Below, piece after piece: positions 25,358 to 36,693 of a stretch of DNA of 64,000 nucleotides. Under the pieces are notes generated by a model. It was given only the letters and a program-made list of their open reading frames with translations, was not told the origin of the DNA and ran no database searches. Position 1 is the first letter of the stretch. Every line of letters starts with the position of its first letter. A program made the translations under genes and the position numbers. Location of the stretch: contig NC_017249.1 in assembly GCF_000284375.1 (NCBI RefSeq), positions 6,875,001 to 6,939,000 of the forward strand, read 5' to 3'. Source of the stretch: Bradyrhizobium japonicum USDA 6 (lineage in GTDB: Bacteria; Pseudomonadota; Alphaproteobacteria; Rhizobiales; Xanthobacteraceae).

Positions 25358-26128
25358 ATGGATCTCGGTCTCAAAGGCAAGAACGCCATCGTCCTCGGCG
25401 GCACGCGCGGCATCGGGCGGGCGATTGCGGCGACGCTCGCCGGCGAAGGTGCCAATGTCGCGGTGTGCGCGCGCAACGCGGATCAGGTTGCGGCGACCGT
25501 CACTGAACTCAAGGCAAGCGGTATCCGTGCCAGCGGCGGACCGGTCGACGTCACCGACGGCGCGGCGTTGAAAGTGTGGATCGAGACTGCTGCAAAGGAG
25601 CTCGGCGGCGTCGACCTGCTGTTCGCCAATGCCGGCGCGATGGCGCAAGGCGCGGATGCGGCGTCCTGGGAGCAGAACTTCCGGCTCGACGTGCTCGGCG
25701 CCGTGCATGCGTTCGACGCCGCGCGGCCGTTCCTCGAGGCCAGCGGCGAGAAAAGCGGCGATGCCGCCTTCGTCATCATCTCCTCGATCTCGGCGGCGCA
25801 GGCCGATCTCGCCAGCTCCTACGGCCCGATCAAGGCGGCGCTGATCCACATGGCCAAGGGACTGGCTCGGCAATACGCAAAGAAGAAGATCCGCGTCAAC
25901 GTGGTGTCGCCCGGCACGGTCTATTTCAAGGGCGGTGTCTGGAACATGATCGAGCAGAACATGCCGGAGCGCTACAATGATGCGATGAAGCGCAATCCGA
26001 CGGGCCGCATGGCGACGCCGCAGGAGATCGCAAGCGCGGCGGTGTTTCTGGCAAGCCCGGTATCGGGGTTCACCACGGGCTCCAATCTCGTCGTGGACGG
26101 CGCGATCTCGAACCGGGTGAACTTCTAG
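25358..26128 (+). CDS. Short-chain dehydrogenase/reductase (SDR)
   Basis: A 256-residue classical SDR oxidoreductase. The nucleotide-binding motif is GGTRGIGRAIA near the N-terminus, then LFANAG, the catalytic Ser in ISSISAAQA and the Tyr-x3-Lys pair in SSYGPIKAA, and the C-terminal SPVSGFTTGSNLVVDGA. This points to NAD(P)-dependent oxidation or reduction of a hydroxyl/keto group. Arg in CARNADQ after the second strand suggests NADP preference. Substrate unknown. AAAAGGAAAACCAAACA precedes the ATG. The gene is bracketed on both sides by copies of the same palindromic repeat. Confidence 0.92.
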   Translation: MDLGLKGKNAIVLGGTRGIGRAIAATLAGEGANVAVCARNADQVAATVTELKASGIRASGGPVDVTDGAALKVWIETAAKELGGVDLLFANAGAMAQGADAASWEQNFRLDVLGAVHAFDAARPFLEASGEKSGDAAFVIISSISAAQADLASSYGPIKAALIHMAKGLARQYAKKKIRVNVVSPGTVYFKGGVWNMIEQNMPERYNDAMKRNPTGRMATPQEIASAAVFLASPVSGFTTGSNLVVDGAISNRVNF

Positions 26129-26136
26129 AGGGCACG

Positions 26137-26242
26137 CTGTCATCGCCAGACTTGATCGGGCGATCCAGTATTCCAGAGACAGCGTGGCTAGAACCGAGAA
26201 GCCGCAGCGTACTGGATACCCCGCTTTCGCGGGGTATGACAG
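26137..26242. repeat. Palindromic dispersed repeat, copy B
   Basis: Starts nine bases after the SDR stop codon, bounded by CTGTCAT (26137-26143) and ATGACAG (26236-26242). It shares with copy A the blocks CGATCCAGTATTCCAGAG, GCGTACTGGATACCCCG and TTTCGCGGGGTATGACA. Differences are mainly in the central ~25 bases. Its internal hairpin CCCCGCTTTCGCGGGG could also help end SDR transcription. Confidence 0.8.
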
Positions 26243-26277
26243 TCGAGTGTGTCGCGTACGATCACGCCAACAAACTC

Positions 26278-26355
26278 GTCATTGCGAGCGTAGCGAAGCA
26301 ATCCAGACTGCCACCGCGGAAAGACTCTGGATTGCTTCGCTACGCTCGCAATGAC
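26278..26355. repeat. Perfect 30-bp inverted repeat (GTCATTGCGAGCGTAGCG family)
   Basis: Arms at 26278-26307 and 26326-26355 are exact reverse complements over 30 bases, with an 18-base loop. The arm begins GTCATTGCGAGCGTAGCGAA. It lies between the convergent SDR and dnaE2 genes. It is a different sequence family from the repeat next to it and probably a dispersed REP-type element, although such a stem can also block read-through from both sides. Confidence 0.8.
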
Positions 26356-26380
26356 GGTGTGGAGGCATCCTGCCACTCCT

Positions 26381-29300
26381 TCAATGAAAATCCCGCGATG
26401 GCGGCAGGATGCGGACGTTGCGGGGGTGGCGGATTTTTTGCGCCGGCATGTCCGCGTGGGCGCGGGGATCGTCGTTGAGGGGCTCGATCAGATCGGCGCC
26501 TGCCGGCACCGGATGCTTGCGGCTCAGCGCGTCGTTGGCGAGCCCGACCAGATCCTGCGAGCGATCGACCATGCGCTGGGCGATGAGATGCGTCACCTTT
26601 TCGGGGCTGCTCTGGATATAGCCCTCGACCAGGATGAGGCGCGCGCCCATCACCTCCTTGCGGTACTGCTCCATGACCTTGGGCCACACCACAACATTGG
26701 CGATGCCGGTCTCGTCCTCCAGCGTCATGAACACGACGCCGCTGGCGCTGCCCGGCCGCTGCCGCACCAGCACCACGCCGGCGCAGCGGACGCGGCGCCG
26801 CTCGTTCTCATGGCTGATGTCCCTGCAGGCCACCACACGCTCGCGCGAAAACATCTCGCGCAAAAACTCCATCGGATGGCCCTTCAGCGATAGCCGGATG
26901 GTCTGGTAGTCCGCGACCACCTGCTCGGCCCGCGGCATCTCCGGCAATGGTTTTGCGTGCTCGTCCGGCTGCTCGCGCGCGGTCGCGGCCTCGAACAGCG
27001 GCAGCGGCACGTCGTCGGGCAGCCGCCGCACCTGCCACAGCGCCTCGCGGCGGTCGAGGCCGAGCGAGCGGAACGCGTCGGCATCCGCGAGCAGGATCAG
27101 CGCACGCTTGGGCAGACCGGTGTCGCGGGCGAAGTCCTCGAGCGAGGTGAAGGGATGGCGGTTGCGGGCGGCGACGATGCGGTCGGCCCAGTCGGTTGCT
27201 CCGTCATTCCGGGGCGACGCGCCAGCGTCGAGCCCGGAATCCATAACCACCATCGGGCGTATGGATTCCGGGCTCGCGCCTTTCGGCGCGCCCCGGAATG
27301 ACGACTGGATGGCTTTCAACTTCTCCTCATCCTCGTCCAGCCAATGAAAGCCGTCGATCTGGCGGAACCCCAGACGCACGGCGCAGTATTTGCCGTCGGT
27401 ATTCTCCAACGTGTTTTGCGCAAAGCTGTAGGAGACGTCGATGTCGCGCACCTCGACGCCGTTCTTGCGGGCGTCGCCGACGATCTGCGCCGGCGCGTAA
27501 AAGCCCATCGGCTGCGAGTTCAGCAGGCCGCAACAGAACGCATCGGGGTGATGATATTTCAGCCATGACGAGATGTAGACGAGCTGCGCGAAGCTCGCGG
27601 CATGGCTCTCCGGAAAACCGTAGGAGCCAAAGCCCTTGATCTGGTCAAAGCAGCTTCTGGCGAAGTTGGCATCGTAGCCGCGCGCGACCATGTTGCCGAT
27701 CAGCTTCTCCTCGTATTGGCCGATGGTGCCGACATTGCGGAAGGTCGCCATCGAGCGGCGCAGACCGTTAGCCTCTTCGGAGGTGAATTTCGCCGCCTCG
27801 ATCGCGATGCGCATCGCCTGTTCCTGGAACAAAGGCACGCCCAGCGTTTTGTGCAGCACATTGTAAAGCTCGTCCTTGTCGCCATGGTCCGGCGACGGAG
27901 ACGGATAGCTCACTTTTTCCAGACGGTTTCGCCGTCGCAGATATGGGTGCACCATGTCGCCCTGGATCGGCCCGGGGCGTACGATCGCGACCTCGATGAC
28001 GAGATCGTAGAAGGTCCGCGGCTTCAGGCGCGGCAGCATGTTCATCTGTGCGCGGCTCTCGACCTGGAACACGCCGAGGGATTCCCCGGCACACAGCATG
28101 TCGTAAACCTTGGGATCGTCCTGAGGGACACTCGCCAGCACCCAACGCTTGCTCTTGTGGTGGTCGATCAAATCAAAACATTTCCGGATGCAGGTCAGCA
28201 TGCCCAGCGCGAGCACGTCGACCTTCATCATGTTGAGCGCGTCGACGTCGTCCTTGTCCCACTCGATGAAGGTGCGGTCGTCCATCGCGGCGTTGCCGAT
28301 CGGCACATAGGTGTCGAGCCGGTCTTGCGTCAGCACATAGCCGCCGACATGCTGGGAGAGATGGCGCGGGAATTCGATCAGCTCGGTCGCGAGCTCCACC
28401 GCGAGGTTGATCATGGGATTGCTGGGATCGAGCCCGGCCTGCCTGACCTGCATGTCGTTGAGGCCCTTGCCCCAGCTTCCCCACACGGTGTCGGCGAGCG
28501 CGGCGGTGACATCCTCGGTCAGGCCCAGCGCCTTGCCGACGTCGCGGATGGCGCTGCGCGGGCGGTAATGGATGATCGTAGCGATGATCGCGGCGCGGTG
28601 GCGGCCGTAGCGGCGATAGACATATTGCATCACCTCCTCGCGCCGCGAATGCTCGAAATCGACGTCGATATCAGGCGGCTCCAGCCGCTCCTTGGAGATG
28701 AAGCGCTCGAACAGCAGATCGACCTTGGTCGGGTCGACCGAGGTGATGCCGAGCACGTAGCAGACGGCCGAGTTCGCCGCCGACCCCCGCCCCTGGCACA
28801 GGATGTTCTGGCTGCGCGCGTAGTGCACGATGTCGTGCACGGTGAGGAAGTAGTGCGCATATTTCAGCTCGGCGATCAGCGCGAGCTCCTTCTTCAGGGT
28901 CGCGCGCAGCTTGTCATCGATCTTGCCGCCGAAATATTTGTCGACGCCCGCCCAGGTCAGATCTTCCAGATGCCCCTGTGCGGTCTTGCCTCGCGGCACA
29001 GGTTCGTCCGGATACTGGTATTTGAGCTGGTCGAGCGTGAAATCGATCTTGCCCGCAAAGCGCATGGTCTCCGCGATCGCCTCGGGAAAATCGCGGAACA
29101 GCCGCGACATTTCGCGCGGCGTCTTCAGGAAGCGCTCGGCATTGGCTTCGAGCTTCCGTCCGACCGACTCGATCGTGGTTTTTTCCCGGATGCAGGTCAG
29201 CACGTCCTGGAGAGGACGGCGGCCGGGATGGTGATAGAGCACCTCGTTGGTCGCGAGCAGTGGCACGTTTGCTTTGGCGGCGAGATCATCGAGCCGCGCC

Positions 29301-29830
29301 AGCCGGCGGCGGTCGTCGCCGCGATAGACCAGGCTCGCCGCCAGCCACACACCCTCGGCGCGGCTGTCCTTAAGCTTGGCGAGAACATCCAGCGCCTGCG
29401 CGGGCTCGAAGCGATGCGGCAACGTCAGGATCAGGAGCTGGCCTTCCGCAAACTCAAGAAGATCACCGAAGGTAAGATGGCATTCGCCTTTCTCGATCCG
29501 CGTGATGTCGTCGCCGCGCTTGCCCCTGGTGAGGAGCTGGCACAGCCGGCCATAGGCGGCGCGGTCGCGCGGATAGACAAAAATGTCGGGCGTGCCGTCG
29601 ATGAAGACGATGCGCGCGCCGATCAGCAATTTCGGCTTGTGCAGCACCTTGTCATTGTCGAGCTCCTTGTAGGCGCGCACCACGCCGGCGAGCGTGTTGT
29701 GATCGGCGATGCCGATCGCGGGAATGCCGAGGAGGCTCGCTTGATGCACATAGGCGCGCGGATCCGAGCCGCCGCGCAGGAAGGAGAAATTGGTGGTGAT
29801 GCCGATCTCGGCATAAGCTGATGTCGTCAT
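26381..29830 (-). CDS. dnaE2: Error-prone DNA polymerase DnaE2 (ImuC)
   Basis: A 1149-residue C-family polymerase that extends past DNA lesions together with ImuA and ImuB. The PHP domain opens the protein (AEIGITTNFSFLRGGSDP, IADHNTLAG). The polymerase core includes GRGSAANSAVCYVLGIT, the catalytic-acid segment PPDIDVDFEHSRREEV, and EWDKDDVDALNMMKVDVLAL. Tandem HhH and OB regions follow (KHPVPAGADLIEP at the end). It overlaps imuB by four bases at its start. The start MTTSAYAEIG at 29830 removes an N-terminal extension that only reads imuB in another frame. Residues ~843-876 are encoded by a palindromic repeat, listed separately. Likely LexA-controlled with imuA/imuB. Confidence 0.94.
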   Translation of the reverse strand: MTTSAYAEIGITTNFSFLRGGSDPRAYVHQASLLGIPAIGIADHNTLAGVVRAYKELDNDKVLHKPKLLIGARIVFIDGTPDIFVYPRDRAAYGRLCQLLTRGKRGDDITRIEKGECHLTFGDLLEFAEGQLLILTLPHRFEPAQALDVLAKLKDSRAEGVWLAASLVYRGDDRRRLARLDDLAAKANVPLLATNEVLYHHPGRRPLQDVLTCIREKTTIESVGRKLEANAERFLKTPREMSRLFRDFPEAIAETMRFAGKIDFTLDQLKYQYPDEPVPRGKTAQGHLEDLTWAGVDKYFGGKIDDKLRATLKKELALIAELKYAHYFLTVHDIVHYARSQNILCQGRGSAANSAVCYVLGITSVDPTKVDLLFERFISKERLEPPDIDVDFEHSRREEVMQYVYRRYGRHRAAIIATIIHYRPRSAIRDVGKALGLTEDVTAALADTVWGSWGKGLNDMQVRQAGLDPSNPMINLAVELATELIEFPRHLSQHVGGYVLTQDRLDTYVPIGNAAMDDRTFIEWDKDDVDALNMMKVDVLALGMLTCIRKCFDLIDHHKSKRWVLASVPQDDPKVYDMLCAGESLGVFQVESRAQMNMLPRLKPRTFYDLVIEVAIVRPGPIQGDMVHPYLRRRNRLEKVSYPSPSPDHGDKDELYNVLHKTLGVPLFQEQAMRIAIEAAKFTSEEANGLRRSMATFRNVGTIGQYEEKLIGNMVARGYDANFARSCFDQIKGFGSYGFPESHAASFAQLVYISSWLKYHHPDAFCCGLLNSQPMGFYAPAQIVGDARKNGVEVRDIDVSYSFAQNTLENTDGKYCAVRLGFRQIDGFHWLDEDEEKLKAIQSSFRGAPKGASPESIRPMVVMDSGLDAGASPRNDGATDWADRIVAARNRHPFTSLEDFARDTGLPKRALILLADADAFRSLGLDRREALWQVRRLPDDVPLPLFEAATAREQPDEHAKPLPEMPRAEQVVADYQTIRLSLKGHPMEFLREMFSRERVVACRDISHENERRRVRCAGVVLVRQRPGSASGVVFMTLEDETGIANVVVWPKVMEQYRKEVMGARLILVEGYIQSSPEKVTHLIAQRMVDRSQDLVGLANDALSRKHPVPAGADLIEPLNDDPRAHADMPAQKIRHPRNVRILPPSRDFH
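27203..27302. repeat. Palindromic repeat element embedded in frame inside dnaE2
   Basis: Outer arms GTCATTCCGGGGCG (27203-27216) and CGCCCCGGAATGAC (27289-27302) are exact complements; inner arms AGCCCGGAATCCAT (27231-27244) and ATGGATTCCGGGCT (27261-27274) are too. The 100-base element is read through by dnaE2 without a stop, giving a segment that begins SSFRGAPKGASPES and ends DAGASPRND, between LDEDEEKLKAIQ and GATDWADRIV. It resembles intergenic repeats of related genomes and the coding palindromic elements (RPE) of Rickettsia. Confidence 0.8.
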
Positions 29831-31413
29831 GCGAAGAGACCGTGCACATACCAGTTGGGGGGAATGGGTTTGCCTTCGTCGTCGAACACCTCTCCTTCGT
29901 AAAGGCCGTCGCGAAAGATCCAGAAGCGCAGGCCTTCGGCGTCCTCGATGCGGAAATAATCCCGCGTCAGTTGCTTGCCGTCCTGCCGCCACCATTCCAT
30001 CGCGATGCGCTCGGGCCCTTCCACCCGCACCACCGCATGCAGCGCGCGGCGCCAGGTGAACTGATGCGGCGGGCCGTCGGGCACGGTCGCGAACGGCACC
30101 TTGATCGGCTCCGGTCTGTCGAACAGCCGCAGGGGGCGCAGCGGCGGCTCGCTCTCGGTGCGCGCCGGCCATTCGGCCTGCATGGCCACGGCGAGATGGT
30201 GCTGGGCAGGCGCGGCCAGTACCGCACATTCCGGGATATGGGTATCCTCAGGCAAATGCACGACGACGCGCTTCCCGCCGATGCGCGCGGCGATGCGGTC
30301 GATCAGCGCGGCGAGTTCGTCATTGTCGTGGACATGGGCGTCGAGATCGCGCTGCTCCTGCACAACGATCTCGGTGCGGCTCGCCGACAGCCGCACCATG
30401 TCGAAGCCGAAGCCGGGATCCAGCGGATCGGCGAGCGCATCGAGGCGTTCGCGAAATAGCCGGTCGATGACTTTGCTTTGCGTCACCGGCCGCCCGGTCT
30501 CGACCATGATCGCGCGCACCACGCCGTCGGTGCGAAAGAAGGCGGCTTCCAGGCGCCGCGCGCCCTTGCCCTGCTTCTCCATCGACGCGATCAGCGTGTC
30601 GGCGAGCCGCGACAGCGTCATCGCGATCATGGTGTCGGTGGCGATCGGTTCGGCAAAGCGCTTCTCCACGATGTAATCCGGCAACGGTTTGCGCGGATTG
30701 ATGGGGGCATCGCCATGTCCCTGCGCATGCGCGAGCAGCGTGGAGAACCGCGCGCCGAATCGCGCCGTGATCTCATGCGGCTCGCGCGAGGCGACATCGC
30801 CGATGGTTTTCAGGCCGGCGCGGCGCAGACCAGTGGTGATGGCCTCGCCCGCACCGAGCGTGGACACCGGCAGCCGTCTGATCGCCACCGCCTCCCCGCC
30901 ATCGGCGACGATGGTGCCGGAGGCCTGCCGCGTCAGCGTGCGCGCGCAGACCGAGGTGCCGGCGATCGCCGCGCTGACGGCAAAACCCTGACGGGCGAGC
31001 GCGCGCACCAGCGTCTGCAACAGCGCGGCCTCGCCGCCGAACAGATGCGCGCAGCCGGTGATGTCCAGAAACAGCCCGTGCGGCGGGTCGAGCGCCACCA
31101 GCGGCGTGAAGCGGTCGCACCAGTCGGCGACGTCGCTGAGCGTCTTCGCATCGGCCACGACATCGGCGTCGAACACTTTCAAGTCCGGACACATCGCCCG
31201 CGCATTCGCGAGCGGCTGACCGATATACAAGCCGAGGCGCTCGGCGGCCTCGTCCAGCGCATGGATCACCAGCGCATTGTTGTCCTTGATGACAACGATG
31301 CTCGGATCATTGGCCTTACCCAGCGCGCCGAAGAACCGCTGAATCCGATCGATGGGCAGGCGTGGCAGCCACAGGCTGAGGATACGTCGACGGTTCAGAG
31401 AACTGGCACTCAT
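29827..31413 (-). CDS. imuB: ImuB, Y-family polymerase-like mutasome scaffold
   Basis: A 528-residue Y-family polymerase homologue that has lost polymerase activity and bridges DnaE2, ImuA and the beta clamp during lesion bypass. It starts MSASSLNRRRILSLWLPRLP, the usual ImuB opening. It lacks the acidic catalytic motif expected in that strand of active Y-family polymerases and keeps the palm/finger landmark DITGCAHLFGGE and the HhH region (GLRRAGLKTIGDVA). The clamp-contact type motif PLRLFDRPEPI is near residue 430. Its 3' end overlaps dnaE2 by four bases and its 5' end overlaps imuA by 98 bases. The ATG at 31413 is chosen because upstream in-frame codons fall within imuA. Confidence 0.92.
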   Translation of the reverse strand: MSASSLNRRRILSLWLPRLPIDRIQRFFGALGKANDPSIVVIKDNNALVIHALDEAAERLGLYIGQPLANARAMCPDLKVFDADVVADAKTLSDVADWCDRFTPLVALDPPHGLFLDITGCAHLFGGEAALLQTLVRALARQGFAVSAAIAGTSVCARTLTRQASGTIVADGGEAVAIRRLPVSTLGAGEAITTGLRRAGLKTIGDVASREPHEITARFGARFSTLLAHAQGHGDAPINPRKPLPDYIVEKRFAEPIATDTMIAMTLSRLADTLIASMEKQGKGARRLEAAFFRTDGVVRAIMVETGRPVTQSKVIDRLFRERLDALADPLDPGFGFDMVRLSASRTEIVVQEQRDLDAHVHDNDELAALIDRIAARIGGKRVVVHLPEDTHIPECAVLAAPAQHHLAVAMQAEWPARTESEPPLRPLRLFDRPEPIKVPFATVPDGPPHQFTWRRALHAVVRVEGPERIAMEWWRQDGKQLTRDYFRIEDAEGLRFWIFRDGLYEGEVFDDEGKPIPPNWYVHGLFA

Positions 31414-32116
31414 CACATTTCCATTCGATGATCCACCGGCCGCACGGGCCATGACGATTGCGTAAGAGCTCCGCATCGAAGCGCGGCGCGCCCCAGGCAC
31501 TCCAAGGCGCCGCAGGCATTGAAGCCGGGCCCGGCGGCGAATGCGCCGCGCGCAGCATCCACCGCGTCTCCGCGGTCGAGGGCAGCGGCTGCGCCGCCAT
31601 CCGCAGCATCAGGCCGGTGACACCGGACGATTGCGCGACCAGCGTCAGCTTGCGGCTCGCCACCAGATCGAACTGCCTGACATCGCCCCAGAGCTCGAGC
31701 ACGACGGCGCCCAGCGCATCGCAGGCGAGCGCATCGGCCGAGGTGCGCAGCGCGCTCTCGACATCGGCGGCGCGCACCATCACCACGCGGCGCGGATCGA
31801 GACCGATTTCGGCAAGCCCGCTCATCGACAGTGCGCCGGTCTCGAGTTCCGAAAAATCTTGCCGCACCCACAGCAGCGGCCGGCGAGCGGTCACGCGCCC
31901 GGCGAGGCCCATGACAAAGCCGGTCGCGGCCGCGCCCTGGCGCCCCTCGCAAAACACCTCATGGATCACCGCGCGCGCGAGCCCGCCCTTCAGCGCGCTG
32001 TCGACCTCGCCGTGGCCGAGCGCGACGCGATCGTGCTGATGCACGACCTCCGCCGTCTCGATGCGCTCGATCTGGCCGCGCAAGGTCGCAAGCGCATTCA
32101 TCCGTGCGCCGCTCAT
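31316..32116 (-). CDS. imuA: ImuA, RecA/SulA-like mutasome protein
   Basis: A 266-residue RecA-fold protein, first gene of the imuA-imuB-dnaE2 cassette. Visible family features are the N-terminal LATLRGQIERIE, VIHEVFCEGRQGAAATGFVMGLA (a loop at the P-loop position without a standard GKT), PLLWVRQDFSE and VVLELWGDVRQFDLVASRKL. It binds RecA/ImuB in characterised systems. Start: ATG at 32116 with GAAGGAG eight bases upstream; MNALATL at 32101 is the alternative. Its last 98 bases overlap the beginning of imuB in another frame, unusually long. A LexA box lies 66 bases upstream. Confidence 0.9.
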   Translation of the reverse strand: MSGARMNALATLRGQIERIETAEVVHQHDRVALGHGEVDSALKGGLARAVIHEVFCEGRQGAAATGFVMGLAGRVTARRPLLWVRQDFSELETGALSMSGLAEIGLDPRRVVMVRAADVESALRTSADALACDALGAVVLELWGDVRQFDLVASRKLTLVAQSSGVTGLMLRMAAQPLPSTAETRWMLRAAHSPPGPASMPAAPWSAWGAPRFDAELLRNRHGPCGRWIIEWKCDECQFSEPSTYPQPVAATPAHRSDSAVLRRAG

Positions 32117-32145
32117 ATACGCCGCTCCTTCAGAGGTGATTGCCG

Positions 32146-32167
32146 AGGTTCTCAAAAATAAGAACCT
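32146..32167. promoter_or_regulatory. Small inverted repeat in the imuA leader
   Basis: AGGTTCT (32146-32152) and AGAACCT (32161-32167) form a 7-bp inverted repeat around CAAAAATA, 29 bases upstream of the imuA start and next to the LexA box. It could be a 5' leader hairpin or an operator. It does not fit the direct-repeat LexA consensus. Confidence 0.4.
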
Positions 32168-32182
32168 GCGGCTGGCTCATTT

Positions 32183-32197
32183 GTTCACGATATGTTC
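32183..32197. promoter_or_regulatory. LexA (SOS) box GTTC-N7-GTTC
   Basis: GTTC (32183-32186), seven bases ACGATAT, GTTC (32194-32197): an exact match to the direct-repeat LexA operator of alphaproteobacteria. It lies between divergent start codons, 66 bases from imuA and 82 bases from the radical SAM gene, inside an AT-rich stretch that includes TATAAAG at 32201. LexA control of imuA-imuB-dnaE2 is known from relatives; control of the rightward operon is inferred from position. Confidence 0.85.
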
Positions 32198-32279
32198 TAA
32201 TATAAAGCTAACAGCGGCCCGGGAGTCAATCGAATTGGTGCTCATCCGGATTCGTAAGCTGAATCAAAGGGATTCCACG

Positions 32280-33515
32280 ATGGACGTACAACGCAAGCTG
32301 GAGATTCTGGCCGATGCCGCCAAATACGATGCGTCGTGCGCCTCCAGCGGCACCGAGAAGCGGGATTCCAGCGATGGCAAGGGCATGGGCTCGACCGCGC
32401 CGGGCATGGGCATCTGCCATTCCTACGCGCCGGACGGACGCTGCATCTCGCTGCTCAAAGTGCTCCTGACCAACGCCTGCAATTACGACTGCCTTTATTG
32501 CGTCAATCGCGCCTCTTCCAACGTGCCGCGTGCCCGCTTCACCATCGACGAAGTGGTCAAGCTCACGCTCGACTTCTACCGGCGCAATTACATCGAGGGC
32601 CTGTTCCTCTCCTCCGGCATCATCCGCAGCCCCGACTACACCATGGAGCAGGTGGTCAGCGTCGCGCGCAAACTGCGCGAGGAGCACCACTTCCGCGGCT
32701 ACATCCATCTCAAGACCATTCCCGAGGCCGACGACGCGCTGATCGCCGAAGCCGGCAAATATGCAGATCGCCTCTCCATCAACATCGAGATGCCTGAGGA
32801 GACGAGCCTGCAGCGATACGCGCCGGAGAAGGATGTGCGTGCGATCCGCCGCACCATGGGCCGGCTGCGGCTGAAGCTCGACGAGGCCGCGGAAAACCGC
32901 AGCACAAAGACGAAGGCGAGGCCGCAGCGCTTCGCGCCCGCCGGTCAGAGCACGCAGATGATCGTCGGCGCCGACGCGGCCTCCGATCACACCATTCTCC
33001 ACACCAGCGCCAATCTCTATGGCTCCTACAGGCTGCGGCGCGTCTACTACTCCGCCTTCAGCCCGATCCCCGATGCCAGCCGCGCTTTGCCTCTGGTACA
33101 GCCGCCGCTGTTGCGCGAGCACCGGCTCTACCAGGCCGACTGGCTGATGCGGTTCTACGGTTTCGATGTTGCGGAGATCGTTGACGACAGCGCGATGCTG
33201 CCGCTCGACATCGATCCGAAGCTCGCCTGGGCGCTGCGCCATCGCGACCGCTTCCCGCTCGACGTCAACCGCGCCAGCCGCGAGGAGCTGTTGCGCGTGC
33301 CCGGCTTCGGCACCAAGGCGGTCGAACGCATCATCGCGACACGGCGCACCACCACGATCCGCCTCTCCGATCTCGCGCGGCTGCACGTGCCCCGCAACAA
33401 GGCGCTGCCGTTCATCATCCTCAGCGATCACCGGCCCGCCCCGCATCGCCTCGACGAGGCGCGGCTGATCGAACGGTTCAAGCCGAAGGCAACACAACTG
33501 GGGTTTGGCTTCTGA
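32280..33515 (+). CDS. Putative DNA modification/repair radical SAM protein (TIGR03916 type)
   Basis: A 411-residue radical SAM protein. The 4Fe-4S motif is C67-x3-C71-x2-C74 in TNACNYDCLYCVNR. Further cysteines at 20, 46 and 55 precede it and could bind another cluster or metal. The radical SAM barrel continues with LFLSSGI and HLKTIPEAD. The C-terminus holds a helix-hairpin-helix DNA-binding motif (about residues 328-356, RVPGFGTKAVERII). The domain set fits TIGR03916, a family linked by gene neighbourhood to uracil-DNA glycosylase-like proteins but of unknown chemistry. The next gene starts within its stop codon (TGATG). The start MDVQRKLEIL agrees with the family. Divergent from imuA across a LexA box. 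Confidence 0.88.
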   Translation: MDVQRKLEILADAAKYDASCASSGTEKRDSSDGKGMGSTAPGMGICHSYAPDGRCISLLKVLLTNACNYDCLYCVNRASSNVPRARFTIDEVVKLTLDFYRRNYIEGLFLSSGIIRSPDYTMEQVVSVARKLREEHHFRGYIHLKTIPEADDALIAEAGKYADRLSINIEMPEETSLQRYAPEKDVRAIRRTMGRLRLKLDEAAENRSTKTKARPQRFAPAGQSTQMIVGADAASDHTILHTSANLYGSYRLRRVYYSAFSPIPDASRALPLVQPPLLREHRLYQADWLMRFYGFDVAEIVDDSAMLPLDIDPKLAWALRHRDRFPLDVNRASREELLRVPGFGTKAVERIIATRRTTTIRLSDLARLHVPRNKALPFIILSDHRPAPHRLDEARLIERFKPKATQLGFGF

Positions 33516-34957
33516 TGCAGTACATCTCCCTCGACACCGAAACCGATTTCGACGGCTGGCGCAAAGCCGCGCGGTCGCTCGTGCTGCATCATGTGCAGCC
33601 AGCCGATGTCACCTGGACCGTACAAGGCGGCGAAGCCGAGTTGTTCGCACCGCCCGCGCCGTCTCCGATACTTGAGGTGAACGACGGCACCTTCAATGTG
33701 TCGGCAAAATTCGTCGATCTCGCCAAGGCCGCGATCCTGCATCGCGACGGCGAGCGCTTTGCGATCCTCTATCGCCTGCTCTGGCGCTTGAAGGACAATC
33801 ACGATCTCATCGAGGTCGCGACCGATCCCGATGTCGCGCAAGTCACCGCAATGGCAAGAGCAGTCCATCGCGACGAGCACAAGATGCATGCCTTCGTGCG
33901 CTTCCGCGAGATCGGACGCGAACGCGCGGCGCATTACGTCGCCTGGTTCGAACCGGAGCATCACATCGTCGAGCTAGCCGCACCGTTCTTCGCCAAGCGC
34001 TTCGCCGACATGCCCTGGTCGATCCTGACACCCGATCTGTGTGCGCATTGGGATGGCCACGCGCTCTCGTTCACGTCGGGCGTGAGCAAGAGCGAAGCAC
34101 CCGGCGAAGACCGGCTGGAGGAAACCTGGCGGCGCTACTACGCCAGCATCTTCAACCCGGCGCGGCTGAAGGTGAAGGCGATGCAGACGGAGATGCCGAA
34201 GAAATACTGGAGGAACCTGCCCGAGGCGTCGATCATTAAGCCCTTGATCGAGGACGCCGAGCGCATGACCGGCGCCATGATCGCCAATGCCGCAACCGAT
34301 CCGCACAAGCCCCAGAAGCGGCCGGAGGCTCCGATGCCACGCAAGCTGACTGCCGACGATCTCGAAGCGCTCCGCCAGGAGGCCGCCCATTGCCGCGCCT
34401 GCCCGCTCTACAAGGACGCGACGCAGACCGTATTCGGCGAGGGCCCGAAAGACGCCACCATCATGCTGGTCGGCGAGCAGCCCGGCGACAAGGAAGACCT
34501 CGCCGGCCACCCCTTCGTCGGCCCGGCCGGCCAGATGCTCGATCGCGCGCTTCAGGAAGCCGGCGTCGACCGCAACAAGGTCTATGTCACCAACGCGGTG
34601 AAGCACTTCAAATTCGTGCCGCGGGGAAAGATTCGTCTGCACCAGAAGCCGGCGACGCCGGAGATCCGGGCGTGCCGGCAATGGTACGAGCGGGAAGTTT
34701 CGGCAATCCAGCCCGAACTCATCGTGGCGATGGGCGCCACCGCCGCGCAGAGCGTGTTCGGCAAGATCACCCCGATCGGCAAGACCCGTGGCCGGCTCAT
34801 AGATCTGCCCGAGGGGCGCAAGGCACTGGTGACGGTGCATCCGTCCTATCTGCTGCGGCTGCCTGATCCGGAAGCGAAGGTGCTGGAATATCAGCGCTTT
34901 GTCGAAGACCTGAAGATTGCCGCCGGCTTGCAGAAGAAAGCCCCGCGCGCCGCCTAA
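33515..34957 (+). CDS. udgX: DUF4130 - UdgX-type uracil-DNA glycosylase fusion
   Basis: A 480-residue two-domain protein. Residues 1 to ~245 are a DUF4130 (TIGR03915-like) domain; ~283-475 are a family-4/UdgX uracil-DNA glycosylase (TIGR03914-like). The C-terminal domain has C293-x2-C296 (CRACPLY) and C387 for the iron-sulfur cluster, the catalytic loop GEQPGDKED (320-328), VGPAG, the loop GKIRLHQ (371-377) and HPSYLLR (442-448). In mycobacterial UdgX the KRRIH loop supplies the His that becomes covalently linked to the abasic sugar after uracil excision; here the equivalent is KIRLH with His376. Coupled to the radical SAM gene by a one-base overlap, it is probably the second half of a DNA-repair module. 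Confidence 0.9.
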   Translation: MQYISLDTETDFDGWRKAARSLVLHHVQPADVTWTVQGGEAELFAPPAPSPILEVNDGTFNVSAKFVDLAKAAILHRDGERFAILYRLLWRLKDNHDLIEVATDPDVAQVTAMARAVHRDEHKMHAFVRFREIGRERAAHYVAWFEPEHHIVELAAPFFAKRFADMPWSILTPDLCAHWDGHALSFTSGVSKSEAPGEDRLEETWRRYYASIFNPARLKVKAMQTEMPKKYWRNLPEASIIKPLIEDAERMTGAMIANAATDPHKPQKRPEAPMPRKLTADDLEALRQEAAHCRACPLYKDATQTVFGEGPKDATIMLVGEQPGDKEDLAGHPFVGPAGQMLDRALQEAGVDRNKVYVTNAVKHFKFVPRGKIRLHQKPATPEIRACRQWYEREVSAIQPELIVAMGATAAQSVFGKITPIGKTRGRLIDLPEGRKALVTVHPSYLLRLPDPEAKVLEYQRFVEDLKIAAGLQKKAPRAA

Positions 34958-34997
34958 ATGCTGGCAAATACTGGAGGGAAGCGACTTTACGACGCAG

Positions 34998-35015
34998 CTG
35001 TCATCCAGCCTTCAA
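34998..35015 (+). promoter_or_regulatory. Candidate Pho box upstream of the phosphate transporter
   Basis: CTGTCAT (34998-35004), four bases, then CCTTCAA (35009-35015). The first half is a perfect match and the second a 4/7 match to the CTGTCAT-N4-CTGTCAT PhoB box. It lies 49 bases before the pit start codon. PhoB represses pit in Sinorhizobium meliloti, so the position makes sense. Confidence 0.45.
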
Positions 35016-35064
35016 ATCCATCGCGGACAATAGCCCTTTCAAATTAGTTAAGGGGCGTCCAAAA

Positions 35065-36693
35065 ATGACAGATGTTGCATTCGACCGTGCGGTAGGCGAT
35101 CCGACGCCTGTCCAGCCGGCTTCCAGGCCCAATCTCGACAAGGGATTTAACCCGCTCACGATGATCCTGTTCTTCGGCATCCTTGCCGCGGGCCTGCTGT
35201 TCGTTGCCTACAGCATCTATGTCGACGTCAACGCGACCGGCACGAAGGTGACGACCTTCCTGCCCTACATCCTCCTGTTCGTTGCGCTGCTGATCGCGCT
35301 CGGCTTCGAATTCGTCAACGGCTTCCACGACACCGCCAACGCGGTGGCGACCGTGATCTACACCCATTCGCTGCCGGCCGAATTCGCGGTGATGTGGTCG
35401 GGCTTCTTCAACTTCCTCGGCGTGCTGCTGTCCTCCGGTGCCGTCGCCTTCGGCATCGTCTCGCTGCTGCCGGTCGAGCTGATCCTCCAGGTCGGCTCCA
35501 GCGCCGGCTTCGCCATGGTGTTCGCACTCTTGATCGCCGCGATCATCTGGAACCTCGGTACCTGGTATTTCGGCCTGCCCGCCTCCTCCTCGCACACGCT
35601 GATCGGCTCGATCATCGGCGTCGGCATTGCCAACGCCGTCATGCGCGGCCGCGACGGCACCTCGGGCGTTGACTGGAGCAAGGCCACCGAGATCGGCTAC
35701 GCGCTCCTGCTGTCGCCGCTGTTCGGTTTCATCTGCGCCGCCGTGCTGCTGCTGCTGCTCAAGTTCATCGTGCGCAACCCGGCGCTCTATGCCGCGCCCG
35801 AAGGCAACAAGGCGCCGCCGCTCTGGATCCGCGGCCTGCTGATCGCGACCTGCACCGGCGTCAGCTTCGCCCACGGCTCGAACGACGGCCAGAAGGGCAT
35901 GGGCCTGATCATGCTCATCCTGATCGGCACCGTGCCGACGGCCTACGCGCTCAACCGCACGCTGCCGGAGAGCCAGGTCGCCCAGTTCCAGAAGGTCTCG
36001 GAGGCCGCCTCCAAGGTGATCGCGGCCAAGGGCGCTGGTCACTCGATCATCGGCGATCCCCGTCCTGCGGTGACGCAGTACATCACCTCGCACCACATCA
36101 GCGAAGGCACTTACCCCTCGCTGTCGGTGCTGGTGAAGGATGTCGGCGACCAGGTCGCGAAGTACGGCTCGCTCAACAAGGTACCGGCGGAAGTGGTCGG
36201 CAACACCCGTAACGACATGTACCTGACCTCGGAAGCGATCCGCTTCCTGATGAAGGACAAGGAAAACGACCTCAACAAGGAAGAGGTCGCGACCTTGAAC
36301 GCCTACAAGGGCGGGCTCGATAGCGCCACCAAGTTCATCCCGCTCTGGGTGAAGGTCGCGGTGGCAATCGCACTCGGCCTCGGCACCATGGTCGGATGGA
36401 AGCGCATCGTCGTCACCGTCGGTGAGAAGATCGGCAAGACCCATCTCACCTACGCGCAGGGCGCCTCCGCCGAGCTGGTCGCCGCCGCCACGATCGGTGC
36501 CGCCGACGTGTTCGGCCTCCCGGTCTCGACCACCCACGTGCTGTCGTCCGGCGTCGCCGGCACCATGGCCGCGAACGGCTCGGGCCTGCAGATGGCGACC
36601 ATCCGCAACCTGCTGATGGCCTGGGTGCTGACGCTGCCCTGCGCGATCGCGCTGTCGGCCACGCTGTATGTGATCTTCTCGCGGATCTTCTGA
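35065..36693 (+). CDS. pitA: Low-affinity inorganic phosphate transporter (Pit)
   Basis: A 542-residue PHO4-family inner membrane symporter for metal-phosphate and protons. The two inverted PHO4 signatures are visible: GFEFVNGFHDTANAVATVIY near residue 77 and GVSFAHGSNDGQKGMGLIM near residue 267. The last third (ASAELVAAATIGAADVFGLP, STTHVLSSGV) completes the fold. A hydrophilic loop of ~120 residues between the halves fits the long bacterial subgroup. It begins MTDVAFDRAVGDPTPVQP, a soluble N-terminal tail before the first helix. It stands alone, and a candidate Pho box is upstream. Confidence 0.94.
   Translation: MTDVAFDRAVGDPTPVQPASRPNLDKGFNPLTMILFFGILAAGLLFVAYSIYVDVNATGTKVTTFLPYILLFVALLIALGFEFVNGFHDTANAVATVIYTHSLPAEFAVMWSGFFNFLGVLLSSGAVAFGIVSLLPVELILQVGSSAGFAMVFALLIAAIIWNLGTWYFGLPASSSHTLIGSIIGVGIANAVMRGRDGTSGVDWSKATEIGYALLLSPLFGFICAAVLLLLLKFIVRNPALYAAPEGNKAPPLWIRGLLIATCTGVSFAHGSNDGQKGMGLIMLILIGTVPTAYALNRTLPESQVAQFQKVSEAASKVIAAKGAGHSIIGDPRPAVTQYITSHHISEGTYPSLSVLVKDVGDQVAKYGSLNKVPAEVVGNTRNDMYLTSEAIRFLMKDKENDLNKEEVATLNAYKGGLDSATKFIPLWVKVAVAIALGLGTMVGWKRIVVTVGEKIGKTHLTYAQGASAELVAAATIGAADVFGLPVSTTHVLSSGVAGTMAANGSGLQMATIRNLLMAWVLTLPCAIALSATLYVIFSRIF

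Follow-up and report, generated by a model that had tools for sequence, protein, structure and literature searches.

How does a single LexA box come to lie between two divergent gene sets, and does it serve both of them? This question is raised by a locus of Bradyrhizobium japonicum USDA 6 in a window of 64,000 nucleotides (the whole stretch of DNA that was analyzed; all coordinates are positions within it). A predicted LexA box, GTTC-N7-GTTC (GTTCACGATATGTTC, 32183..32197, + strand), lies 66 bases from the start of imuA (32116) and 82 bases from the ATG (32280) of a gene for a radical S-adenosylmethionine protein (rSAM). Leftward run the mutasome genes imuA, imuB, and dnaE2, and rightward the rSAM gene is followed by a gene for a fusion of a DUF4130 and a UdgX domain. 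A preliminary description of the locus had given the perfect box and both distances, which are exact in the sequence, and had proposed shared SOS control of lesion bypass and of one rSAM/UdgX module. Its observation is confirmed, and its interpretation is partly supported. The probable explanation is that one LexA operator controls two back-to-back promoters in a merged layout, with rSAM and DUF4130 as a dispensable pair and with UdgX capping abasic sites alongside the mutasome.

Conservation of the LexA box

The bare motif is at chance level and is worthless as proof by itself. The window contains three matches to GTTC-N7-GTTC, where shuffled versions contain 1.57 on average and at least three in 23 of 100 cases. 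Across the 9.2-Mb single-contig genome, 196 sites (91 + 105) stand beside 211 (106 + 105) for a reversed-pattern control. As the motif is at chance genome-wide, conservation was taken as the evidence, and conservation is decisive for regarding the predicted box as real. Of 57 named alphaproteobacterial loci, 53 have a box between −150 and +25 bp relative to the start of rSAM; of 3051 equally sized control tiles, 10 contain one (the 80 named loci are the best 80 of 588 relatives, with classes assigned by us from the titles). Four genome samples, which have some members in common, agree with this. TIGR03916, the rSAM family, exceeds its cut-off in 28 of 150 genomes of the order, 68 of 117 of the genus Bradyrhizobium, 29 of 119 of the family, and 12 of 240 of the class; a box lies at most 500 bp upstream of rSAM in 28/28, 67/68, 29/29, and 11/12 of these, respectively. 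Both marks of an alphaproteobacterial LexA regulon member, a box close upstream and conservation beyond chance, are thus found, and the genome encodes lexA and recA with a box upstream of each.

In other classes the motif upstream of rSAM changes. CTGT-N8-NCAG and GTTC-N4-GAAC, which we take to be the LexA sites of Betaproteobacteria and Verrucomicrobia, respectively, precede rSAM in 9 of 10 named betaproteobacterial loci (control 4/593) and in 4 of 6 named verrucomicrobial loci (control 0/267). In Gammaproteobacteria a box of the tested kinds is present at only one of seven named loci. Non-alphaproteobacterial loci that often carry another LexA-type motif upstream include L190, L192, L193, L197, L205, L208, L237, and L245, among others. 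Upstream of rSAM, four xanthomonad loci (L198, L212, L219, and L233) carry the inverted repeat GTCTCA...TGAGAC in place of the tested motifs.

Distribution and origin of the divergent layout

The preliminary description had called for a survey of the divergent layout, and the layout proves not to be strain-specific. Together with a box in the sense of imuA (GAAC-N7-GAAC when read in that direction), it is found in 67 of 68 rSAM-positive Bradyrhizobium species. The family sample, which includes four members of the genus, has it in 18 of 29 rSAM-positive genomes, the order sample in 5 of 28, and the class sample in 1 of 12. Relative to rSAM the genus box lies at about −97, and it has the sense of imuA. 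Within the 190 bp before rSAM it is the sole complete box in 66 of 67 genus regions; L032 has a second one, to which the equivalent of a lone GAAC half-site at 32162-32165 belongs.

Non-divergent rSAM genes carry a GAAC-N7-GAAC box of their own in gene sense at 23/23 loci of the order and 11/11 of the family (one locus is in both). Among the named non-divergent loci, the box is in gene sense in 41 of 47, in the other sense in three (L189, L196, and L229), and absent in three. In the order sample, 110 genomes have an imuA match; among the 30 best-scoring of these loci, 26 have a gene-sense box before imuA. Because its orientation matches these gene-sense imuA boxes, the shared box would be that of imuA, and the box of rSAM would be gone. 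Since non-divergent rSAM loci have their own, oppositely oriented box, it seems likely that the clade merged two LexA operators into one.

On a tree of 124 rSAM proteins the divergent layout needs four changes, at least three of them forced by well-supported branches, compared with a mean of 23.2 after shuffling. Near-copies were removed for this tree, as were two rows (L049 and L181); with these two included, five changes are needed and at least four are forced. The contig of L181 begins 126 bp before rSAM. L049 and L259 (G183:C236) belong to one species, in which DNA of foreign appearance, possibly an insertion element, adjoins rSAM at the site where box and imuA are expected. In the family sample, L061 is an ambiguous case: its ImuA match has low identity, and the gap measures 71 bases. 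The rSAM gene also travels: among 72,556 plasmid records, 158 carry an ortholog, and Phaeobacter accounts for 58 of these.

Loss of rSAM with retention of UdgX

The rSAM and UdgX genes do not behave as the single module that had been proposed, since in many species UdgX remains after the loss of rSAM (41 loci). In the genus sample, 110 of 117 genomes have TIGR03915, the DUF4130 family, above its cut-off and only 68 have TIGR03916, so that 49 lack a full rSAM match. Of these 49, the first 20 were inspected via imuA without regard to UdgX; all 20 have imuA and the same box, with UdgX matched on the opposite side. Another 22 loci were chosen by their TIGR03915 hit; one of them (L316, G237), with an rSAM C-terminus at the contig edge, was then dropped, giving 21 and a total of 41. 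L316 does not count as rSAM-less in the comparison of full-length fusions or on the trees; it was among the rows of the first UdgX residue check and among the 42 sequences from which the substitution-rate groups were drawn. The remaining rSAM-less species of the genus are three with remnants (L141, L142, and L143) and four that were left out (G201, G221, G243, and G247). In all 41 loci the box separates divergent UdgX and imuA genes, and all 28 checked UdgX residues are present. Two of the species (L293 and L299) have lost DUF4130 entirely and kept UdgX. In 13 rSAM-less species UdgX starts 84 to 85 bp from the box, at about the place that rSAM takes in the window (82 bp). UdgX is also kept in the remnant species L141 and L142. 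Deletion scars that affect rSAM, with or without udgX, and leave the box upstream are seen in L029, L082, L141, L142, and L143.

The two domains of the fusion fare differently after the loss. The 28 UdgX residues are those invariant in 55 diverse proteins, and the 28 DUF4130 residues were picked as invariant in rSAM-bearing proteins, a choice that favors the contrast. In 38 full-length fusions from rSAM-less species, UdgX retains 28/28 residues throughout, while DUF4130 retains 13 to 28 (median 22), with all 28 in only three. The 32 rSAM-positive fusions from other genera, which were not in the alignment that defined the residues and whose UdgX identity goes down to 0.49, retain 24 to 28 DUF4130 residues (median 28; Mann–Whitney p 2e-10 for 38 versus 32, indicative only as the rows are related). 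Within the genus, 54 rSAM-positive fusions retain 27.9 on average. L308 shows the contrast most clearly: its UdgX is 96% identical to that of the window, and its DUF4130 is 63% identical with 13 of 28 residues. F127, M223, Y208, H122, A126, and M227 are lost most often, and D104, F130, W144, P147, F159, R162, and W205 are always retained, which looks like a fold that is preserved apart from one surface.

The ratio of nonsynonymous to synonymous substitution rates (dN/dS) was obtained for 36 of 42 rSAM-less sequences in three groups drawn by eye (L293, L299, L303, L306, L316, and L317 were excluded). Median values for DUF4130 are 0.21 to 0.25 without rSAM versus 0.13 with it; for UdgX they are 0.07, 0.11, and 0.16 in the three groups versus 0.09. 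On a UdgX-domain tree of 95 rows, the absence of rSAM needs 10 changes, at least five of them forced, and the exact number is unsure because the domain is short and recombination is possible. Since UdgX keeps 28/28 residues after rSAM loss while DUF4130 loses residues that are invariant elsewhere, the genes seem to form two units, rSAM with DUF4130 and an SOS-type UdgX beside the mutasome. The rSAM/DUF4130 pair is also the wider one: in 12 of 80 named loci DUF4130 stands beside rSAM and no UdgX match is present (some contigs are short). Loci listed for this arrangement are L187, L192, L193, L199, L211, L228, L232, L234, L237, and L253.

One genus thereby offers a natural experiment that separates UdgX from its neighbors, with rSAM lost several times, DUF4130 drifting, and UdgX mostly intact. 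Natural rSAM-positive and rSAM-negative species make the role of UdgX open to test, and a set of lost residues is at hand for the partnership of rSAM and DUF4130.

The intergenic region and its promoters

The footprint was built from 29 non-redundant intergenic regions of 80, the rest being at least 85% identical to one that was kept. The box has the highest mean conservation of any stretch measured (0.98), followed by the block of the imuA −35 element (32225-32234, 0.92). Values of 0.89 directly right and 0.81 directly left of the box, 0.76 beside rSAM, and 0.72 at the imuA start are obtained, and 0.56 to 0.62 in the spacer, in the imuA leader, and in 32235-32252, the spacer being at 0.61. 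In most regions an imuA promoter of the form TTGACT-N17-TTTATW-A-box can be read by eye from the alignment. Its predicted elements in the window, both on the minus strand, are the −35 TTGACT (32224..32229) and the −10 TTTATA (32201..32206, from by-eye spacing in the aligned regions), and the box sits at the likely imuA transcription start. TTGACT is present at the matching distance in 66 of 67 rSAM-positive and 20 of 20 rSAM-less genus regions.

To the left of the box lies a conserved block, GGCTGGCTCATTT (32170..32182, no strand assigned), with a mean conservation of 0.81 versus 0.62 for 32117-32168, which is a candidate −35 region of a rightward promoter. Its TGGC is present in almost equal proportions with rSAM (64 of 67 regions) and without it (18 of 20), but because rSAM-less regions still carry UdgX on the right, this comparison is silent on whether the block marks an rSAM promoter. 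The lone GAAC half-site (32162..32165, no strand assigned) lies 17 bp to the left of the box and is conserved in 27 of the 29 regions. A second, degenerate operator on the rSAM side was rejected, as the best recurring offset gave six of eight letters in only five of 29 regions. An attenuator, suggested by a terminator-like hairpin on the minus strand (inverted repeat 32147-32166), was dropped as too weak. The consensus fold of the 29 leaders reaches −1.0 kcal/mol with a negligible covariation term, and none of 100 column shuffles is as low. Rfam at its gathering cut-offs gives no match in 26000-36000.

Proposed mechanism and alternative explanations

In the Bradyrhizobium clade (Nitrobacteraceae, going by the named members) a single LexA operator would serve both directions. 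Leftward it lies on the predicted transcription start of imuA-imuB-dnaE2, and rightward it is the only complete LexA box ahead of the rSAM and DUF4130-UdgX genes. Bound LexA would keep both directions silent, and RecA-driven cleavage of LexA would lead to both being produced together. The arrangement probably originated when two SOS operons became head to head and the rSAM side then lost its own operator. The rSAM protein and DUF4130 would constitute a dispensable unit with some DNA chemistry. UdgX, which is mostly retained, would most likely excise uracil from single-stranded DNA and then covalently cap the abasic site during gap filling by the mutasome. Of the shared SOS control that had been proposed at the outset, the conserved box, single in 66 of 67 regions, speaks in favor; the SOS control of a uracil-DNA glycosylase (UDG)/rSAM pair as such was already known. 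A more far-reaching reading, which we regard as tentative, makes UdgX a part of the SOS mutasome that traps uracils as capped abasic sites, with rSAM and DUF4130 as a detachable pair acting on the same intermediates. Uracils would then arise by deamination or by dUTP use in long single-stranded gaps, and the protein-capped abasic sites would steer or protect gap filling by DnaE2. The chemistry of rSAM and DUF4130 would probably involve a second iron–sulfur cluster, and F127, M223, Y208, and H122 would mark the rSAM-dependent site of DUF4130.

Several observations weigh against the shared operator and the separate role of UdgX. A consensus σ70 scan of 32090-32320 on both strands found no promoter, and promoter elements are readable by conservation only on the imuA side. 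Repression of the rightward genes is not guaranteed by the predicted box, because it lies 82 bp from the rSAM ATG and is opposite in sense to most stand-alone rSAM boxes; this sense is also seen in the three non-divergent loci L189, L196, and L229. However many species of a single clade have the layout, they count as one event. In Methylopila capsulata (L183), and in L021 of the same clade, the imu genes are head to head with rSAM and three boxes are present, and the imu cassette of Henriciella pelagia (L223) is head to head with rSAM with two boxes. In L257, another genome of the family of L021, a distance of about 5.9 kb separates imu and rSAM, and both have boxes of their own. The examined stretches of L143 (genus) and L082 (family) have no UdgX match, and L029, from outside the genus, retains only a 50-residue UdgX remnant. 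DUF4130 is still under purifying selection without rSAM, the UdgX dN/dS reaches 0.16 in one of three rSAM-less groups, and 21 of the 41 loci, having been picked by a DUF4130 hit, could not reveal DUF4130 loss.

The box could control imuA-imuB-dnaE2 only, the rightward genes being mere neighbors with a constitutive or other promoter that lost SOS control together with their own box. Its orientation and spacing fit imuA, the scan found no rightward promoter, and a lone GAAC half-site lies left of the box. Against this stand the boxes at rSAM in 53 of 57 named alphaproteobacterial loci, with other motifs in 9 of 10 betaproteobacterial and 4 of 6 verrucomicrobial loci but in only one of seven gammaproteobacterial loci: SOS control seems to be kept across changes of motif, and a loss in this clade alone is therefore less likely. 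In 13 rSAM-less species, moreover, UdgX has come to lie 84 to 85 bp from the box, near the start position of rSAM, and overall we consider control of imuA only unlikely. Chance clustering of SOS genes, in which the head-to-head placement has no meaning beyond co-regulation, is a serious possibility, if short of an even one. It is favored by the rarity of the layout among rSAM-positive genomes of the order (5/28) and the class (1/12) and by the few changes on the rSAM tree (four, at least three forced). The recurrence of such placements in distant clades (the Bradyrhizobium clade, Methylopila, and Henriciella) and the neighborhood of UdgX and imuA, which outlasts rSAM in the genus, argue for a meaning.

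A separate question is whether rSAM, DUF4130, and UdgX are one repair pathway in which UdgX is optional, so that UdgX in rSAM-less species is a slowly decaying remainder. The wider occurrence of rSAM with DUF4130 (12 of 80 named loci without a UdgX match), the loss of UdgX as well in L143 and L082, and the dN/dS of 0.16 for UdgX in one rSAM-less group, compared with 0.09 with rSAM, would fit such a decay. The conserved residues, however, are lost by DUF4130 and not by UdgX (28/28 in 38 full-length proteins), and the UdgX values in the other two groups are 0.11 and 0.07, which makes a single pathway quite improbable.

The encoded proteins

The leftward genes, all on the minus strand, match an ImuABC mutasome in order and families, as had been described. 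They are imuA (31316..32116), imuB (29827..31413), and dnaE2 (26402..29830), the last of which lies beyond the part covered by the preliminary description. DnaE2, an error-prone DNA polymerase alpha subunit, scores 1561 bits with NCBIfam PRK05672 (cut-off 939), and ImuB, a Y-family-like mutasome subunit, is over the cut-offs of Pfam IMS and IMS_C. ImuA is a weak match: with 36.5 bits (E 4e-9) it does not reach the cut-off of 150 of NF033429, and its label is based solely on the E-value and on gene order. For imuB we took the ATG at 31413 as the start; imuB and the dnaE2 start overlap by four bases.

On the plus strand, rSAM (32280..33515) scores 567 bits with TIGR03916 (rSAM_link_UDG, cut-off 343.5) and is linked to a UDG/DUF4130 gene. 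The one-base overlap that had been noted is base 33515, common to the rSAM stop and the fusion ATG; of 87 such pairs, with gene starts picked by a script, 55 overlap by one base and 11 by four. The fusion was also correctly recognized, with DUF4130 (33515..34234; TIGR03915, PF13566) and UdgX (34358..34930; TIGR03914) in one protein, both TIGR families over their cut-offs. The best 50 of 68 Foldseek matches of the fusion protein (E ≤0.001) fall on the UDG part, judged by titles and lengths. The best matches of UdgX are UdgX structures (6l5b, E 7.5e-22), and the predicted domain has template modeling (TM) scores of 0.85 to 0.93 over the target among the first 30. Motif A, GEQPG, is present with its Gln, as is the His of the KRRIH loop. 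The latter, H376 (codon 34640-34642), corresponds in the alignment to H109 of Mycobacterium smegmatis UdgX (6ajo), the cross-linking residue. Q322 and H376 are invariant in 55/55 diverse proteins and in 39/39 proteins of more than 380 amino acids from the rSAM-less set (L316 included). Motif B reads HPSYLLR, with Tyr at the S/A position of HPS(S/A)(L/V)(L/V)R; its H442, P443, L447, and R448 are invariant in 55/55.

The rSAM protein is itself well recognized, and the helix-hairpin-helix that had been assigned to it is a weak match below Pfam's cut-off. Its CX3CX2C motif (C67, C71, and C74) is accompanied by three more invariant cysteines, C20, C46, and C55; together with H47, these are invariant in 57/57 proteins (N-terminus, 32280-32503). 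Exactly three cysteines precede CX3CX2C in 205/205 orthologs, which is compatible with a possible second iron–sulfur cluster. The hydrogen-donor cysteine of spore photoproduct lyase is presumably the one downstream of CX3CX2C, C141 in Bacillus subtilis. At the corresponding +40 to +48, 0 of 205 orthologs have a cysteine, and the window protein has none at all after C74, so its chemistry is probably not of the spore photoproduct lyase kind. A sequence search of the PDB finds no relative at E 0.1. The structure model has a predicted local distance difference test (pLDDT) score of 83.6, but the part with the extra cysteines is of low confidence, residues 19-27 and 38-53 being below 50. Foldseek matches of the model include HydE, viperin, and lipoyl synthase, among others, with TM 0.31 to 0.44 of the query, and spore photoproduct lyase is absent from the best 50 of 91 (E ≤0.001).

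Relation to known systems

SplB has the CX3CX2C core in common with the window rSAM, which differs by the missing Cys 40 to 48 residues after the cluster motif and by the three extra invariant N-terminal cysteines. M. smegmatis UdgX (6ajo, 6iod, and 6l6s) has the Gln of the GEQPG motif A and the cross-linking His in common with the window's domain, which, unlike it, is fused to DUF4130 and lies near a LexA box. The ImuA-ImuB-DnaE2 mutasome is known in the same order and families with a LexA box; here the box also faces a divergent UdgX-bearing gene. In Caulobacter, CC2333 is, we assume, the UDG of the COG1573-COG4277 (UDG/rSAM) pair.

According to the sections considered of PMC1839093, CC2333 is a UDG and CC3211 is dnaE2, locus numbers that suggest separate places, unlike the shared box here. 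SOS control of the COG1573-COG4277 pair is already known in other groups, being described for Alphaproteobacteria, Verrucomicrobia, and Bacteroidetes in the parts of PMC8565304 consulted; it is the same kind of gene pair under LexA-type control, whereas here the box is shared with imuA-imuB-dnaE2. The legend of a neighborhood figure in PMC3765255 links DUF4130, SplB-like rSAM, and UDG in an SOS context, and that paper ties these families to SOS and mutagenesis genes and examined the sharing of bidirectional promoters in its methods. A LexA box and the loss of rSAM are absent from the portions of its text examined, and a divergent imu link may already be drawn in its figure. For UdgX, the abstract of PMC10359453 gives Ser/Ala in motif B where the window protein has Tyr, and its discussion proposes abasic-site protection under stress and calls the precise cellular role largely unknown; the term SOS is absent from the text of PMC10359453. 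No report of a shared operator or of a split between rSAM/DUF4130 and UdgX was found among open-license papers, and the split is new here.

UdgX also resembles SRAP/HMCES (YedK) in its predicted capping of abasic sites, with the differences that it belongs to another protein family and creates its own abasic site from uracil. SRAP/HMCES (YedK) protects abasic sites covalently. The genome of B. japonicum USDA 6 contains two SRAP-family matches, and no GTTC-N7-GTTC lies within 1.5 kb of the one at G000:C1:7471604-7472230; the other is at 2061350-2061712. SRAP genes, too, adjoin imu genes, as stated in the consulted part of PMC3765255.

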